A model generated the notes under the pieces. It ran no database searches, was not told where the DNA came from, and saw nothing but the letters and a program-made list of their open reading frames with translations. Shown here one piece after another: positions 9,279 to 14,041 of a stretch of 64,000 nucleotides of DNA (position 1 is its first letter; each line of letters begins with the position of its first letter). Both the position numbers and the translations under genes were made by a program. Location of the stretch: contig NZ_NEVN01000002.1 of NCBI RefSeq assembly GCF_002261475.1, forward strand, positions 186,001-250,000, read 5' to 3'. This stretch comes from Bordetella genomosp. 5. GTDB taxonomy: Bacteria; Pseudomonadota; Gammaproteobacteria; Burkholderiales; Burkholderiaceae_B.

Positions 9279-9562
9279 GGGGACTCCTGAGACAGGGAAG
9301 GGCGGCGCCAAGGCGGTGGGCATCGGCGTCGGCCCGATCGTAGAAATCCCGGCGGCAAACCGCAATCGGGCAATATTGCGCGAATTTGGCGCAAGCTTAG
9401 TCGAACTTGGGCGACGTAGGGAGACGTTGCGGCGCGCCCTGCGACAACCCGCCGTCATCTTCGGACAGAGGGCAGGGGGCGGAAAGTTGTTTCTTTGTGT
9501 AAATGCGTAGCTTGGCTTCGGGGTGATTGTCGCGGCGTTGCAACTCGTTTCAACTAAACCGC

Positions 9563-9592
9563 TTGCCTTATCTATCTACTAGTAGGTAATAT
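9563..9592 (+). promoter_or_regulatory. sigma-70 promoter P1 with TetR-type operator O1
   Basis: TTGCCT (9563-9568) and TAATAT (9587-9592) are 18 bases apart. The 16-bp palindrome TATCTACTAGTAGGTA (9573-9588) fills the spacer and touches the -10 element, a classic repressor position. Transcription would start near 9599, giving a leader of about 175 bases before the first DUF4148 gene. Confidence 0.65.
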
Positions 9593-9723
9593 TCGTTCAA
9601 CGCTGCAGCAAACAGAACGCGGCAGCCAAGCAAAGCAGTCCGGCAGTCCCCAGAAAGAGAACCACAGCAACACCGGCAGCAGAAGATTCAAGGCATACCG
9701 CCTTTTTTATTTACCCGGTTATC

Positions 9724-9739
9724 TATCTACTAGTAGATA
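9724..9739 (+). promoter_or_regulatory. TetR-type operator O2 upstream of the first DUF4148 gene
   Basis: TATCTACTAGTAGATA is a perfect 16-bp palindrome 35 bases before the first DUF4148 start. The same T-rich block (CTTTTTTATTT then CC) precedes it as precedes O3, so the two promoter regions are duplicates. A weak promoter, TTACCC-N17-TAGATA, would overlap it. Confidence 0.65.
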
Positions 9740-9774
9740 ACTCAAACATCAAATCTACGAACTGGAGCTTTCTC

Positions 9775-10089
9775 ATGAACACGATCAAGACCCTCGCCGC
9801 CGCCATCGCCGTCTCGGCCGCCTTCGCTGGCGCCGCCCAAGCGGGCGAACTGGACTGGCCCCTCGATGCCCCCAACGGCACCAGCCTGACCCGCGCCCAA
9901 GTCGTGGCCGATCTGCAAGACGCCCGTGCCCATGGCCTGGTCACCAGCAGCGAACTCGCATACCCGCCCGTGGCTCAGCAAGCCGCCACGCAAGTGAGCC
10001 GCGCCCAGGTCCGTCAGGAGCTGTCCGCCGCGCAAGCCGCCGGTATCGACGCCTCGGGTGAACTGGACTACCCGCCCGTCGCTGGCTGA
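9775..10089 (+). CDS. DUF4148 secreted protein, paralogue 1
   Basis: A 104-residue exported protein. Residues 1-23 form a signal peptide cut after AQA. The mature 81 residues contain a 35-36-residue internal repeat: GELDWP / SELAYPPVA / GELDYPPVAG at residues 24, 59 and 95, with SLTRAQV and QVSRAQV at 37-43 and 73-79. The L-T-R-A-Q-V-x-A-D-L pattern is typical of DUF4148, a family of small exported proteins of unknown role in Burkholderiales. It is first of four tandem paralogues of identical length. Two palindromic operators lie upstream, so control by the nearby TetR protein is likely. A TGGAG ribosome site precedes the ATG. Confidence 0.88.
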   Translation: MNTIKTLAAAIAVSAAFAGAAQAGELDWPLDAPNGTSLTRAQVVADLQDARAHGLVTSSELAYPPVAQQAATQVSRAQVRQELSAAQAAGIDASGELDYPPVAG

Positions 10090-10133
10090 TTCCACACGAA
10101 GAACGCAACCCTCTTTTTATTTTCCTGAATACC

Positions 10134-10149
10134 TATCTACAGATAGATA
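10134..10149 (+). promoter_or_regulatory. TetR-type operator O3 upstream of the second DUF4148 gene
   Basis: TATCTACAGATAGATA matches TATCTA-N4-TAGRTA and lies 19 bases before the second DUF4148 start. A possible promoter, TTTCCT (10121-10126)-N17-TAGATA (10144-10149), overlaps it. The upstream T-rich block is shared with O2. Confidence 0.6.
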
Positions 10150-10168
10150 GCCCCATCGGAGCCACACC

Positions 10169-10483
10169 ATGAACACCCTCAAGACCCTCGCCGCCGCCAT
10201 CGCCGTTTCCGCCGCCTTCGTCGGCACCGCCCAAGCCGGCGAGCTGGACTGGCCGCCCGTCGACACCAGCGTGAGCACGCTGTCCCGCGCCGACGTGATC
10301 GCCGACCTGCAAGCCGCCAAGGCCCAGGGCCTCGTGACCACGAGCGAACTGGCCTATCCGCCCGTCGCCGCGCAATCGGCCACCCAGCTCACCCGTGAAC
10401 AAGTGCGCCAGCAACTGTCGGCGGCTGACGCTGCCGGCCTGAACGCCTCCGGCGAACTCGATTACCCGCCCGTCGCCGGCTGA
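10169..10483 (+). CDS. DUF4148 secreted protein, paralogue 2
   Basis: A 104-residue paralogue with signal peptide (cut after AQA near residue 23) and the same repeated GELDWPP / SELAYPPVA / GELDYPPVAG blocks. The middle TRAQV elements read SRADV and TREQV. It has its own operator-bearing promoter (O3), so it may head a transcript covering paralogues 2-4. A CGGAG ribosome site lies 7 bases before the ATG. The function is unknown; cell-envelope or periplasmic location is inferred from the signal peptide. Confidence 0.87.
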   Translation: MNTLKTLAAAIAVSAAFVGTAQAGELDWPPVDTSVSTLSRADVIADLQAAKAQGLVTTSELAYPPVAAQSATQLTREQVRQQLSAADAAGLNASGELDYPPVAG

Positions 10484-10551
10484 GCCGCGCGGCACCGAAG
10501 CCCTCATTCCCGATCACTGCACTGAACCCTCCCGACACTAAGGAACCCATC

Positions 10552-10866
10552 ATGAACACGATCAAGACCCTCGCCGCCGCCATCGCCGTCACCGCCGCTT
10601 TCGCAGGCACCGCCCAGGCTGGCGAACTGGATTGGCCCCTCGACGCGCCCAACGGCAGCACCCTGACCCGCGCCCAAGTCGTGGCGGATCTGCAGGACGC
10701 CCGCGCTCAAGGCCTCGTGACCAGCAACGAACTGGCTTACCCGCCCGTCGCCCAGCACGCCGACTCGCAAGTGACGCGCGCCCAGGTACGCCAGGAACTA
10801 TCCGCCGCCCAGGCCGCCGGCCTCGGCATGTCCGGTGAGCTCGACTACCCGCCCGTGGCCGGCTGA
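10552..10866 (+). CDS. DUF4148 secreted protein, paralogue 3
   Basis: A 104-residue paralogue, closest to paralogue 1: both have GELDWPLDAPNG after the signal peptide and near-identical TRAQVVADLQDARA. This points to a recent duplication. No operator or promoter was seen in the 68-base gap before it, so it is probably read from upstream. AAGGAA precedes the ATG. The role is unknown. Confidence 0.87.
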   Translation: MNTIKTLAAAIAVTAAFAGTAQAGELDWPLDAPNGSTLTRAQVVADLQDARAQGLVTSNELAYPPVAQHADSQVTRAQVRQELSAAQAAGLGMSGELDYPPVAG

Positions 10867-10895
10867 GCCGTCCCCTTTCCAACCAGGAGTCCACC

Positions 10896-11210
10896 ATGAA
10901 AACCCTCAGTGTTCTCGCCGCCGGCCTCATCACCTCGCTCGCGTTCCTGGGTTCGGCCCAGGCTGGCGAACTCGACTGGCCGCCCGCCGATACCAGCACC
11001 AGCACGGTGACCCGTGCCCAGGTCCAGGCCGAGCTGCATGCCGCCCGCGCTTTGGGGCAGCTGGCGTCCGGCGAGCAGGAGTATCCGATCACGGCATATG
11101 CCGACGCGAGCGCAGTCAGCCGCGATCAGGTTCAGTCCGCACTGCTGGCCGCGCGCCAGGCAGGTCAGACCGCGGCCGGGGAGCTCGACTACCCGCCCGT
11201 GGCCGGCTGA
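10896..11210 (+). CDS. DUF4148 secreted protein, paralogue 4
   Basis: The most diverged paralogue, still exactly 104 residues with a signal peptide (cut after AQA), GELDWPPAD at the mature N terminus and GELDYPPVAG at the C terminus. The middle block has changed to GEQEYPITAYA and the second repeat to VSRDQVQSALLAA. It starts 29 bases after paralogue 3, with CAGGAG 7 bases before the ATG, so it is probably the last gene of the transcript. The TetR gene follows after 145 bases with its own promoter. Confidence 0.85.
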   Translation: MKTLSVLAAGLITSLAFLGSAQAGELDWPPADTSTSTVTRAQVQAELHAARALGQLASGEQEYPITAYADASAVSRDQVQSALLAARQAGQTAAGELDYPPVAG

Positions 11211-11329
11211 GCCGGACGGCCTATGTGTCGCCAAGAAACCCGCGCGCCCCGCGACGTCGGATGACGCCGTGCAGGCTGCGCGCGGGTCCAGGGATGCCCG
11301 ACACAGGCTGGTTTCCCCTCGATGCATCC

Positions 11330-11349
11330 GATCTATGTGTAGGTAAAAT
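11330..11349 (+). promoter_or_regulatory. tetR promoter with operator O4
   Basis: GATCTATGTGTAGGTA (11330-11345) matches the palindrome at all but the first base. It overlaps a -10 element TAAAAT (11344-11349); the -35 is poor. The predicted transcription start falls at or next to the ATG at 11356, and no ribosome site is visible, so the mRNA may be leaderless. Confidence 0.55.
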
Positions 11350-11355
11350 TCAGCC

Positions 11356-11955
11356 ATGGATACGCAAACCCCGACCAACACGCGCGACCAACTGCTGTCG
11401 CACGCGCAAAAACTGATCCGCACGCGTGGTTGCAATGGTTTCAGCTATCGCGACCTGGCTGATCACGTGGGCGTCAAGACGTCCAGCATCCACTACTACT
11501 TCCCGTGCAAAGACGACCTCCTGTACGAGGCGGTCGAGTCGTACAGCACCCGCGCGCTGGCCGCGCTGCGCGCCATCGACACCACGCTGCCCGCGCAAGA
11601 GCAGCTCGATGCCTATCTGCACCTGCTCGAGACGCAGGCCTGTGGCGACGGCGATGAGCTCTGCCTGGGCGGCATGCTGGCCGCCGAGGTGATGTCGCTG
11701 CCCGAGAAGGTCCGCCTGGCCCTGCAAGGCTTTTTCAACGCGCACGAGAGCTGGCTGGCGCGCGTGCTGCGCGAAGGCGCGGCACAAGGCACGCTGAAGT
11801 TCTCCGGATCGCCCGAGGTCACGGCGCGCGCGCTGTTCTCCACGGTGCAGGGCTGCCTGATCAGCTCGCGGCTGTTTCACGAGCCGCCCCGGCTGTGTCA
11901 GGCCGTCGGTGCCATGTACGTCGAGTGCGACGGCGGCAAGGCCGCAACGTCTTGA
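11356..11955 (+). CDS. TetR/AcrR family repressor, cysteine-rich
   Basis: A 199-residue TetR-family regulator. The helix-turn-helix lies at residues 27-50 (FSYRDLADHVGVKTSSIHYY), followed by the family's FxxKxxLL-like turn. The C-terminal ligand domain contains DELCLGGMLAAE near residue 103. There are seven cysteines (26, 51, 96, 103 and three near the C terminus), many for this family; related regulators such as NemR sense electrophiles through a cysteine in a similar place, so redox or electrophile sensing is possible but unproven. It lies downstream of four DUF4148 genes, and the same palindrome stands at its own and their promoters, so it probably represses the cluster and itself. Confidence 0.88.
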   Translation: MDTQTPTNTRDQLLSHAQKLIRTRGCNGFSYRDLADHVGVKTSSIHYYFPCKDDLLYEAVESYSTRALAALRAIDTTLPAQEQLDAYLHLLETQACGDGDELCLGGMLAAEVMSLPEKVRLALQGFFNAHESWLARVLREGAAQGTLKFSGSPEVTARALFSTVQGCLISSRLFHEPPRLCQAVGAMYVECDGGKAATS

Positions 11956-12272
11956 GGTGATCGCACCAGCGGCGCGCCATCCTGAAAGGGATGGCGCCGC
12001 GCCTGGCGACATCGATCCCGTGCAGTTGGTTGCGCGCGCAACTCATCGCGTGCCCGGCAGACCCCGCGCCGTCGTATCCCGCCATTGCGCAAAATCTGCG
12101 CAGTGCGCATGCGCAAATCAAAAAAATTCGATGGTCGCGTGCACGCTTTTAAAAAATGGTGCATAATTCGGCCCCGTTCGACGAAACGCGAATTTGAAGC
12201 GACGGCAAGCAGCAACACACAGGGCACGCCCTGCGATGCGGCAGCAAGCCAGAGCAACGAAATCGGGATCGT
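11956..12272 (+). promoter_or_regulatory. intergenic region upstream of the plus tRNA array
   Basis: This 317-base gap holds the tRNA array promoter at 12139-12167. Just upstream are inverted TTGCGCA / TGCGCAA motifs (12085-12116) and an A run (12120-12126). I see no coding sequence. Confidence 0.5.
12139..12167 (+). promoter_or_regulatory. putative promoter of the plus-strand tRNA array
   Basis: GTGCAC (12139-12144) and CATAAT (12162-12167) are 17 bases apart and are followed by a GC-rich discriminator, as in stringently controlled stable-RNA promoters. The same TGCAC-N17-CATAAT layout occurs at the mirror array. Confidence 0.5.
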
Positions 12273-12348
<76 letters not shown>

Positions 12349-12396
12349 CTTCAACGAACGCAGCAAGTGCAGTAAAAAGTAGTACGGCAAGTCCAA

Positions 12397-12472
12397 GTCC
12401 CCTTCGTCTAGAGGCCTAGGACATCACCCTTTCACGGTGAGTACAGGGGTTCGAATCCCCTAGGGGACGCCA
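12397..12472 (+). tRNA. tRNA-Glu (TTC)
   Basis: A 76-base tRNA with acceptor GTCCCCT / AGGGGAC, encoded CCA, T-arm GGTTCGAATCC and anticodon loop CTTTCAC (anticodon TTC). It is the second gene of the plus array. Confidence 0.97.
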
Positions 12473-12520
12473 GCTTTGCATACGCAGAGATCTGGCTCGG
12501 TTGTAGCAATACACCGCTGC

Positions 12521-12597
12521 GGAGCGGTAGTTCAGTTGGTTAGAATACCGGCCTGTCACGCCGGGGGTCGCGGGTTCGAGCCCCGTCCGCTCCGCCA
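12521..12597 (+). tRNA. tRNA-Asp (GTC)
   Basis: A 77-base tRNA with acceptor GGAGCGG / CCGCTCC, encoded CCA, T-arm GGTTCGAGCC and anticodon loop CTGTCAC (anticodon GTC). It is the last gene of the plus array, followed by two tandem terminators. Confidence 0.97.
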
Positions 12598-12612
12598 CCA
12601 TCGCTCGAGAAA

Positions 12613-12644
12613 GCCGCAACTTCGGTTGCGGCTTTTTCTTTTTG
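12613..12644 (+). terminator. intrinsic terminator 1 of the plus tRNA array
   Basis: An 8-bp perfect stem GCCGCAAC / GTTGCGGC closed by a TTCG tetraloop is followed by TTTTTCTTTTT. Confidence 0.9.
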
Positions 12645-12669
12645 TGCTTCCGATCCGTGCTCCGATGTG

Positions 12670-13266: not shown

Positions 13267-13289
13267 CACTTCGAAGCAATCACAAGCAC

Positions 13290-13320
13290 AAAAAGAAAAA
13301 GCCGCAACGTGAGTTGCGGC
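13290..13320 (-). terminator. intrinsic terminator 1 of the minus tRNA array
   Basis: Stem GCCGCAAC / GTTGCGGC, followed on the minus strand by TTTTTCTTTTT (13290-13300). It is the mirror copy of the terminator at 12613. Confidence 0.9.
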
Positions 13321-13335
13321 TTTCTCAAGCGATTT

Positions 13336-13412
13336 TGGCGGAGCGGACGGGGCTCGAACCCGCGACCCCCGGCGTGACAGGCCGGTATTCTAACCAACTG
13401 AACTACCGCTCC
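13336..13412 (-). tRNA. tRNA-Asp (GTC), mirror copy
   Basis: Same 77-base tRNA-Asp (anticodon GTC, encoded CCA) as at 12521, on the opposite strand. It is the last gene of the minus Ala-Glu-Asp array. Confidence 0.97.
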
Positions 13413-13460
13413 GCAGCGGTGTATTACTACAACCGAGCCAGATCTCTGCGTATGCAAAGC

Positions 13461-13536
13461 TGGCGTCCCCTAGGGGATTCGAACCCCTGTACTCACCGTG
13501 AAAGGGTGATGTCCTAGGCCTCTAGACGAAGGGGAC
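13461..13536 (-). tRNA. tRNA-Glu (TTC), mirror copy
   Basis: Same 76-base tRNA-Glu (anticodon TTC, encoded CCA) as at 12397, on the opposite strand. The 48-base spacer to tRNA-Asp differs from the plus copy at one base. Confidence 0.97.
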
Positions 13537-13583
13537 TTGGACCAAACAGTGTACTGCTTCGTATTGCTACGTCTTCGCTTAGG

Positions 13584-13659
<76 letters not shown>

Positions 13660-14041
13660 ATATTCCCGACATCAACGACGTTTGCAGTGTCACCTGCTCA
13701 CATCACTTTGCTGTCCGGCGCGTCGTAAAACTCGGTGAAAACTGCGATGTTGCTGCGGCTTTCGCTTCGTTTTGTTTCGCGTCGCTGGCGAAGAAACGAG
13801 ATTATGCACAAGTTTTTGGGTGTGTGCAAGTCAGGGTGAAAAAAAACTGAAAAAAAGTGGCGCGGTACAGTTATTGCTCCGTTGCGAGGACTGCGCGCGC
13901 GCCTTACGTGGGACCGCGGGCGAGTCGCTGCGCAATCACAGACAGCAACGTAAGTCATTGACGTAAAGACGGATTCTGATCCCCGCCGCCAACGGTGCGC
14001 GGGGCAGGGCGCCGAAGGACGCGGGCAGGAAGGAGAGTCGG
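13660..14041 (-). promoter_or_regulatory. intergenic region with the minus tRNA array promoter
   Basis: This 382-base gap separates the minus tRNA array from the aldo/keto reductase gene. It holds the strong tRNA promoter and its A/T tracts (13801-13856). I see no gene in it. Confidence 0.55.
13801..13856 (-). promoter_or_regulatory. strong stable-RNA promoter with UP-like element for the minus tRNA array
   Basis: On the minus strand TTGCAC (13829-13824) and CATAAT (13806-13801) are 17 bases apart. Upstream on that strand, T7 and T8 tracts (13850-13856 and 13839-13846) fall at about -45 to -62, where an UP element binds the RNA polymerase alpha subunit. Confidence 0.7.

Follow-up and report, generated by a model that had tools for sequence, protein, structure and literature searches.

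Introduction

Most studied regulators of the TetR family bind small ligands. In a 64,000-nt stretch of DNA from Bordetella genomosp. 5 (contig NZ_NEVN01000002.1, positions 186,001 to 250,000; hereafter the window, whose numbering is used unless another genome is named), a gene for a predicted TetR-family repressor stands beside four genes encoding small DUF4148 proteins, and copies of one palindrome recur among them. Here, we compare this cluster with the closest described systems and weigh the kind of regulon that it may represent.

On the side of the regulator, the nearest comparison is NemR of Escherichia coli (nemRA-gloA), in which Cys106 is the reactive chlorine-sensing residue (PMC7464077). 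The window's repressor likewise belongs to the TetR family, its cysteine 103 (C103) shares an alignment column with Cys106, and its predicted fold matches 4yze. However, the two proteins are 24% identical, their recognition helices differ (compared by eye), and the genes beside the window's tetR encode exported proteins, whereas those controlled by NemR encode a reductase and a glyoxalase. Release of a repressor of its own operon by thiol oxidation, which resembles the thiol-based release that we propose for the window, has been described for RcrR of E. coli (rcrARB), but RcrR uses Cys54 and Cys95 and has other targets, a separation drawn from its published description (PMC9600549).

On the side of the targets, a DUF4148 protein has been reported to be critical for virulence in another genus (PMC7549894). 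BPSS1996 of Burkholderia pseudomallei is exported and belongs to the same Pfam family but, unlike the genes in the window, adjoins a two-component system, IrlR2-IrlS2, and TetR is unmentioned in the main text of that paper (PMC7549894). The CopQ-like proteins of Cupriavidus, encoded by mmtQ, mmsQ, mmmQ, copQ, and czcJ, are also small exported repeat proteins; they carry signal sequences and repeats of the RDXXTDG type (PMC2864759). DUF4148 is nevertheless unrelated to them in sequence; homology between the two was considered and rejected, since profile comparison gave a probability of 15% and the signal peptides alone aligned.

Our literature search was confined to open-access papers, most subscription papers falling outside it. 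For the pairing of DUF4148 with TetR it returned only single mentions of DUF4148, and no paper describing the operator sequence was found in the main texts covered. From the evidence presented below, we consider it fairly probable that tetR and its neighbors form an autoregulated regulon in which small exported repeat proteins are controlled through thiol-based release of the repressor by soft metal(loid)s or electrophiles.

Putative operators in the window

A sequence-only reading of the window had placed the palindrome TATCTA-N4-TAGRTA at 9573, 9724, 10134, and 11330, and all four copies were confirmed. Operator 1 (9573..9588; TATCTACTAGTAGGTA) is a sequence match that is kept in relatives, operator 2 (9724..9739; TATCTACTAGTAGATA) is a perfect palindrome, operator 3 (10134..10149; TATCTACAGATAGATA) has perfect half-sites, and operator 4 (11330..11345; GATCTATGTGTAGGTA) has two bases in common with the -10 box of tetR, TAAAAT; none is assigned a strand. 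The operator of NemR differs from this palindrome. At up to two mismatches, the window contained 10 matches (both strands counted), every one of them inside the cluster, whereas shuffled windows (n = 100) contained 0.14 on average and 2 at most. Across the 5.2-Mb genome, a single extra match with no more than one mismatch was found outside the cluster (C10:65498).

Three of the sites had been attributed to DUF4148 genes and one to tetR. This division held, with the correction that operators 1 and 2 both precede DUF4148 gene 1, while operator 3 precedes gene 2. The four genes lie on the + strand (gene 1, 9775..10089; gene 2, 10169..10483; gene 3, 10552..10866; gene 4, 10896..11210) and match PF13663 with E = 3.2e-21, 9.4e-20, 7.1e-24, and 1.4e-18, respectively, their products scoring 67.5-84.4 bits against a curated cut-off of 27. 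The product of gene 1 is 104 aa long with a signal-peptide-like start (by eye); a structure model of DUF4148 was uninformative (predicted local distance difference test, pLDDT, of 53). The gaps ahead of genes 3 (68 nt) and 4 (29 nt) are without an operator, as had been noticed before, their best matches carrying 6 and 7 mismatches, and we infer that these two genes would be transcribed by read-through.

Conservation and co-occurrence with TetR

A scan of named genomes gave 23 loci, 21 of which (L006-L026) are orthologous tetR loci from Bordetella, Achromobacter, Allopusillimonas, and an Alcaligenaceae; the weak actinobacterial matches L027 and L028 were left out of the ortholog set. Counting the window, palindromes precede the DUF4148 genes and tetR in 22/22 clusters examined; loss of the motif from orthologous clusters, which the sequence-only reading had named as a refuting outcome, was not observed. 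At L019, the DUF4148 genes lie past the 5-kb downstream flank, and L169, judged by length to be from the same contig, shows them with their sites. Before tetR, 13 clusters have a site that departs from the strict palindrome at no more than two positions, and in the remaining nine it reads RACCTA-N4-TAGGTA (by eye), for a total of 22/22.

In a sample of 250 genomes of the family, 55 had a TetR homolog at E <= 1e-45, a cut of our own choosing; nine with weaker matches only (1e-25 to 1e-32) were scored as lacking it. An exact palindrome was present in 54/55 genomes with the homolog vs. 32/195 without (Fisher p = 7e-31), and at least three matches, counted by strand, in 53/55 vs. 8/195, although the sample is weighted toward an Achromobacter-like genus and partly coincides with the named loci, which means that these are not 250 independent trials. 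Among the matches listed in the pattern search, both DUF4148 and TetR were present at 28/30 loci, all 28 belonging to one genus (g4) that we take to be Achromobacter, and neither was present at L069 and L070. L069 belongs to G152, a genome without a close TetR homolog. Genomes of this kind also yielded 13 matches in eight genomes (L070, L104-L110, L112, L116-L119) with no DUF4148 gene or related TetR within 3 kb, while another, G100, has a distant TetR.

Sites away from tetR provide a different view. G092 (L156), from a congener, has two perfect palindromes 68 nt apart ahead of the DUF4148 gene at 3677519, and no related TetR was seen in the 3 kb read; the tetR cluster of that genome lies near 2738188, ~0.94 Mb off. 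As judged from the sequence, this distant pair is a test of the regulon that is beyond the reach of linked clusters. A site in G068 (C14:1097154) adjoins neither DUF4148 nor a related TetR. The cluster of the window had been called self-contained, and in its own genome it is, since the four of its 10 DUF4148 genes (our grouping of 20 domain matches) that lie near palindromes are all in the cluster; the description does not extend to G092 or to the other targets found in Cupriavidus and Burkholderia. Taken together, the 22/22 clusters, the co-occurrence with TetR, the fixed position before tetR, and the distant pair before a DUF4148 gene support the regulon reading in silico.

The operator in other families

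In a sample of 399 genomes of the order, eight had a TetR homolog at E <= 1e-35, four of them outside the family. All four extra-family homologs keep palindromes within two mismatches, and DUF4148 accompanies only one of them (L125). In two of these four genomes, G403 and G554, as well as in Cupriavidus metallidurans CH34 and in C. necator C39, the protein encoded behind an operator pair starts like a signal peptide and contains DPYTDGAR-type repeats; the four such proteins tested, from G403 and G554, matched no Pfam family above cut-off. The homolog of G365 adjoins an Abhydrolase_3 gene, and the distant homolog of G100 lies near genes for a TAT-like hydrolase and a GST.

At L131 and L132 (Paraburkholderia and B. 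multivorans), palindromes were observed before tetR and before ohr, which is followed by an Abhydrolase_3-like gene, a name taken from the analogous, family-tested genes of L120 and L122. It is possible, from this arrangement, that ohr is under TetR-type control in these bacteria.

The repeat proteins of C. metallidurans CH34 allow a comparison with published expression data. Only three places on CHR2 have exact sites, in every case as a pair upstream of a CopQ-like gene. Two of the three CopQ-like genes hardly differ from each other and in this fit mmsQ and mmsQ1, described as almost identical (PMC2864759); with their upstream regions, they look like the product of one recent duplication and do not amount to independent evidence. 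Another CopQ-like gene, at 1058941, has no exact site. Because its neighbors are of the hns-czc type (H-NS-like, czcR-, czcS-, and efflux-like genes, recognized by eye from translations), it fits mmmQ. The distance from mmmQ (Rmet_4461) to mmsQ (Rmet_4908) corresponds to 1.145 kb per tag and puts mmtQ (Rmet_4187) near 745 kb; the CopQ-like gene found nearest to that position, at 770787, fits mmtQ by this interpolation. The operator-bearing genes are thus probably exactly the three, mmtQ, mmsQ, and mmsQ1, that were reported to be apparently unlinked to metal-resistance loci (PMC2864759). Induction of mmtQ was given as high by Cd, Hg, and Pb, moderate by Zn, and absent with Cu or Ni, as "data not shown" (PMC2864759). 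A close TetR homolog lies next to two of the three operator-bearing genes, and upstream of the presumed mmsQ1 there is no more than a weakly TetR-like frame (E = 2.6e-10).

The TetR protein and its invariant cysteine

The tetR gene (11356..11955, + strand) encodes a predicted repressor of 199 aa with TetR_N (PF00440; E = 6.4e-9) and TetR_C_13 domains. Its structure model is all-helical (pLDDT 84), and its top matches are TetR structures, the nearest solved folds being 2g7s, 3on4, 4l62, and 4yze. NemR was not among its NCBIfam matches, although the presence of a NemR model in that library was not checked.

The protein had been described as cysteine-rich and does contain seven Cys in 199 residues, but it is better characterized by conservation: C103 is the sole invariant Cys, present in 28/28 aligned homologs. 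It mostly has a companion, as a second Cys no more than nine residues before or two after C103 was found in 60/64 distinct homologs (59 by script and one by eye). A second TetR paralog, convergent to the first, was also observed adjoining DUF4148 genes (L020-L025, L163, L168, and L170). It is present in a clade that includes Bordetella petrii and Allopusillimonas, and the paralogs of L020-L025 retain C103.

Promoters, leader, and flanking features

The sequence-only reading had described a good promoter, TTGCCT-N18-TAATAT, around operator 1. The hexamers are present in P1 (9563..9592, + strand; -35 at 9563-9568 and -10 at 9587-9592), their 18-nt spacer contains most of operator 1, and the layout recurs in relatives (by eye), but P1 has 8/12 consensus bases, which is below the threshold of a promoter scan that does not list it. 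For tetR, the -10 box lies at 11344-11349 with the ATG 6 nt downstream. In relatives, the last two bases of the operator overlap the -10 box, which ends 6 or 7 nt ahead of the ATG (by eye); given this short distance, the tetR mRNA may be leaderless.

Within the stretch 9593-9711, a terminator-like hairpin, AAGGC(ATACC)GCCTT followed by a T-tract (9690..9711, + strand), lies directly upstream of operator 2. When intervals between operators 1 and 2 were compared, such a hairpin was present in 18/31, with differing stem sequences, and a T-tract started 14-22 nt before operator 2 in 30/31. In shuffled sequences, the 18 hairpin intervals were matched in 0 to 36 of 200 cases, single loci often being weak, and a terminator scan gave sites no more commonly than in shuffles (2 vs. 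2.2). No Rfam family matched at E <= 1 over 9300-12300, which includes the P1 leader. A short P1 RNA ending at the hairpin before operator 2 is possible; since the hairpin is absent from all 11 Achromobacter intervals, L130, and L131, and is weak against shuffles at several loci, we treat a regulated small RNA as a possibility only.

Two other ideas about this interval were rejected. One was a leaderless leader peptide encoded in the stretch from P1 to operator 2; ATG-initiated frames that would fit it were seen by eye in some relatives, but the window and Achromobacter have none. The other, a DNA loop joining operators 1 and 2, finds no support in start-to-start spacings that range from 67 to 254 nt across loci without helical phasing (reckoned by hand).

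Downstream of the cluster, starting ~0.3 kb from tetR, a tRNA-Ala/Glu/Asp cluster occurs twice in inverted orientation (12263-12654 and 13279-13669). The arms are 94-97% complementary, and 0.6 kb separates their inner ends.

Discussion

In the regulon that we propose, a TetR dimer would occupy the palindromes, which lie across or next to the promoters of tetR and of the first two DUF4148 genes, and presumably repress these genes. Thiol-reactive stress acting at C103, mostly together with the second nearby Cys, would then free the repressor, leading to production of the small exported repeat proteins and of the repressor itself. The likeliest inducer would be a soft metal(loid), such as As(III), Sb(III), Cd, Hg, or Pb, or else an electrophile or oxidant. 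The same type of repressor and operator may govern the genes for CopQ-like exported repeat proteins of Cupriavidus as well as the ohr/esterase pair in Burkholderia. Among the strongest responses of Achromobacter As-55 to As(III) and Sb(III) was the induction of a DUF4148 operon (PMC11719878). Since C103 falls on Cys106 of NemR and metal(loid) induction has been published, a thiol switch is favored; metal(loid)s and electrophiles are not separated by this evidence.

Several points weigh against this interpretation. The As-55 operon cannot be matched to the present cluster because the Achromobacter-like genomes searched hold other DUF4148 genes, some of them paired, and the assignment of mmtQ rests on interpolation from the presumed mmmQ. 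In the window, no clear promoter hexamers could be assigned by eye to operators 2 and 3 themselves. One TetR-positive genome (G015) has no exact site, its sites carrying two mismatches, and in another family member (G005) the homolog adjoins an esterase gene (Abhydrolase_3), the 3.5 kb read containing no DUF4148 gene; the 55 TetR-positive genomes thus include at least one other context. Four of the 64 homologs, the mmsQ-linked one of CH34 included, have no second Cys near C103, which makes one fixed metal site less likely. Binding or expression experiments on this TetR were not found in the literature searched. Finally, the Ohr/esterase context in Burkholderia and the hydrolase/GST context in G100 point to oxidants or electrophiles over metals.

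These last contexts, with the alignment of C103 on the reactive chlorine-sensing Cys106, are what commend the strongest alternative, namely a NemR-like sensor of reactive electrophiles or chlorine species for which induction by metals would be incidental to thiol chemistry, and whose exported proteins would shield the envelope from oxidants. We regard it as rather unlikely, given the low identity to NemR and the different recognition helix; moreover, no expression data for oxidants were found, and those for CH34 and Achromobacter concern metals.

More doubtful still is a TetR/DUF4148 regulon that is induced by an organic ligand in the TetR pocket, with the conserved cysteine serving structure and metals acting indirectly through general stress. 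Small ligands are the rule for studied TetR regulators, the fold model fits TetR structures with unknown ligands better than NemR, the second Cys is not universal, and some homologs adjoin hydrolase, Ohr, or GST genes. Against this reading, the one invariant Cys is retained where targets and families differ, and it shares its alignment column with the redox Cys of NemR. Thiol-reactive inducers have been reported for both types of target (PMC11719878, PMC2864759), subject to some uncertainty as to the identity of the genes.

That the palindromes serve another regulator and merely hitch-hike with tetR is highly improbable: the 32 family genomes with at least one exact match and no close TetR would allow it, but co-occurrence is near complete, sites precede tetR itself in 22/22 clusters and follow the regulator into other families and to other targets, and the 13 matches inspected in eight genomes without a close TetR homolog have no DUF4148 or related TetR within 3 kb.

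A broader version of the thiol-switch regulon can be offered only tentatively. In it, this Burkholderiales TetR clade would be devoted to sensing soft metal(loid)s through a thiol and would have recruited small exported repeat proteins of unrelated kinds, CopQ-like in some bacteria and DUF4148 in others, as an interchangeable envelope defense, and P1 would also give rise to a short RNA that ends at a terminator shortly before operator 2. The CH34 genome paper of 2010 stated that MerR, ArsR, and Fur were the only one-component metal regulators recognized there at the time, suggested that LysR, TetR, and MarR were worth a look, and assigned the sensing of soft metal(loid)s to no TetR protein (PMC2864759). 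The operator link now singles out those metal-induced CopQ-like genes of C. metallidurans that have no metal-resistance neighbor and offers a candidate regulator for them. For the DUF4148 proteins, a defined operator and regulator provide a signal that can be tested.

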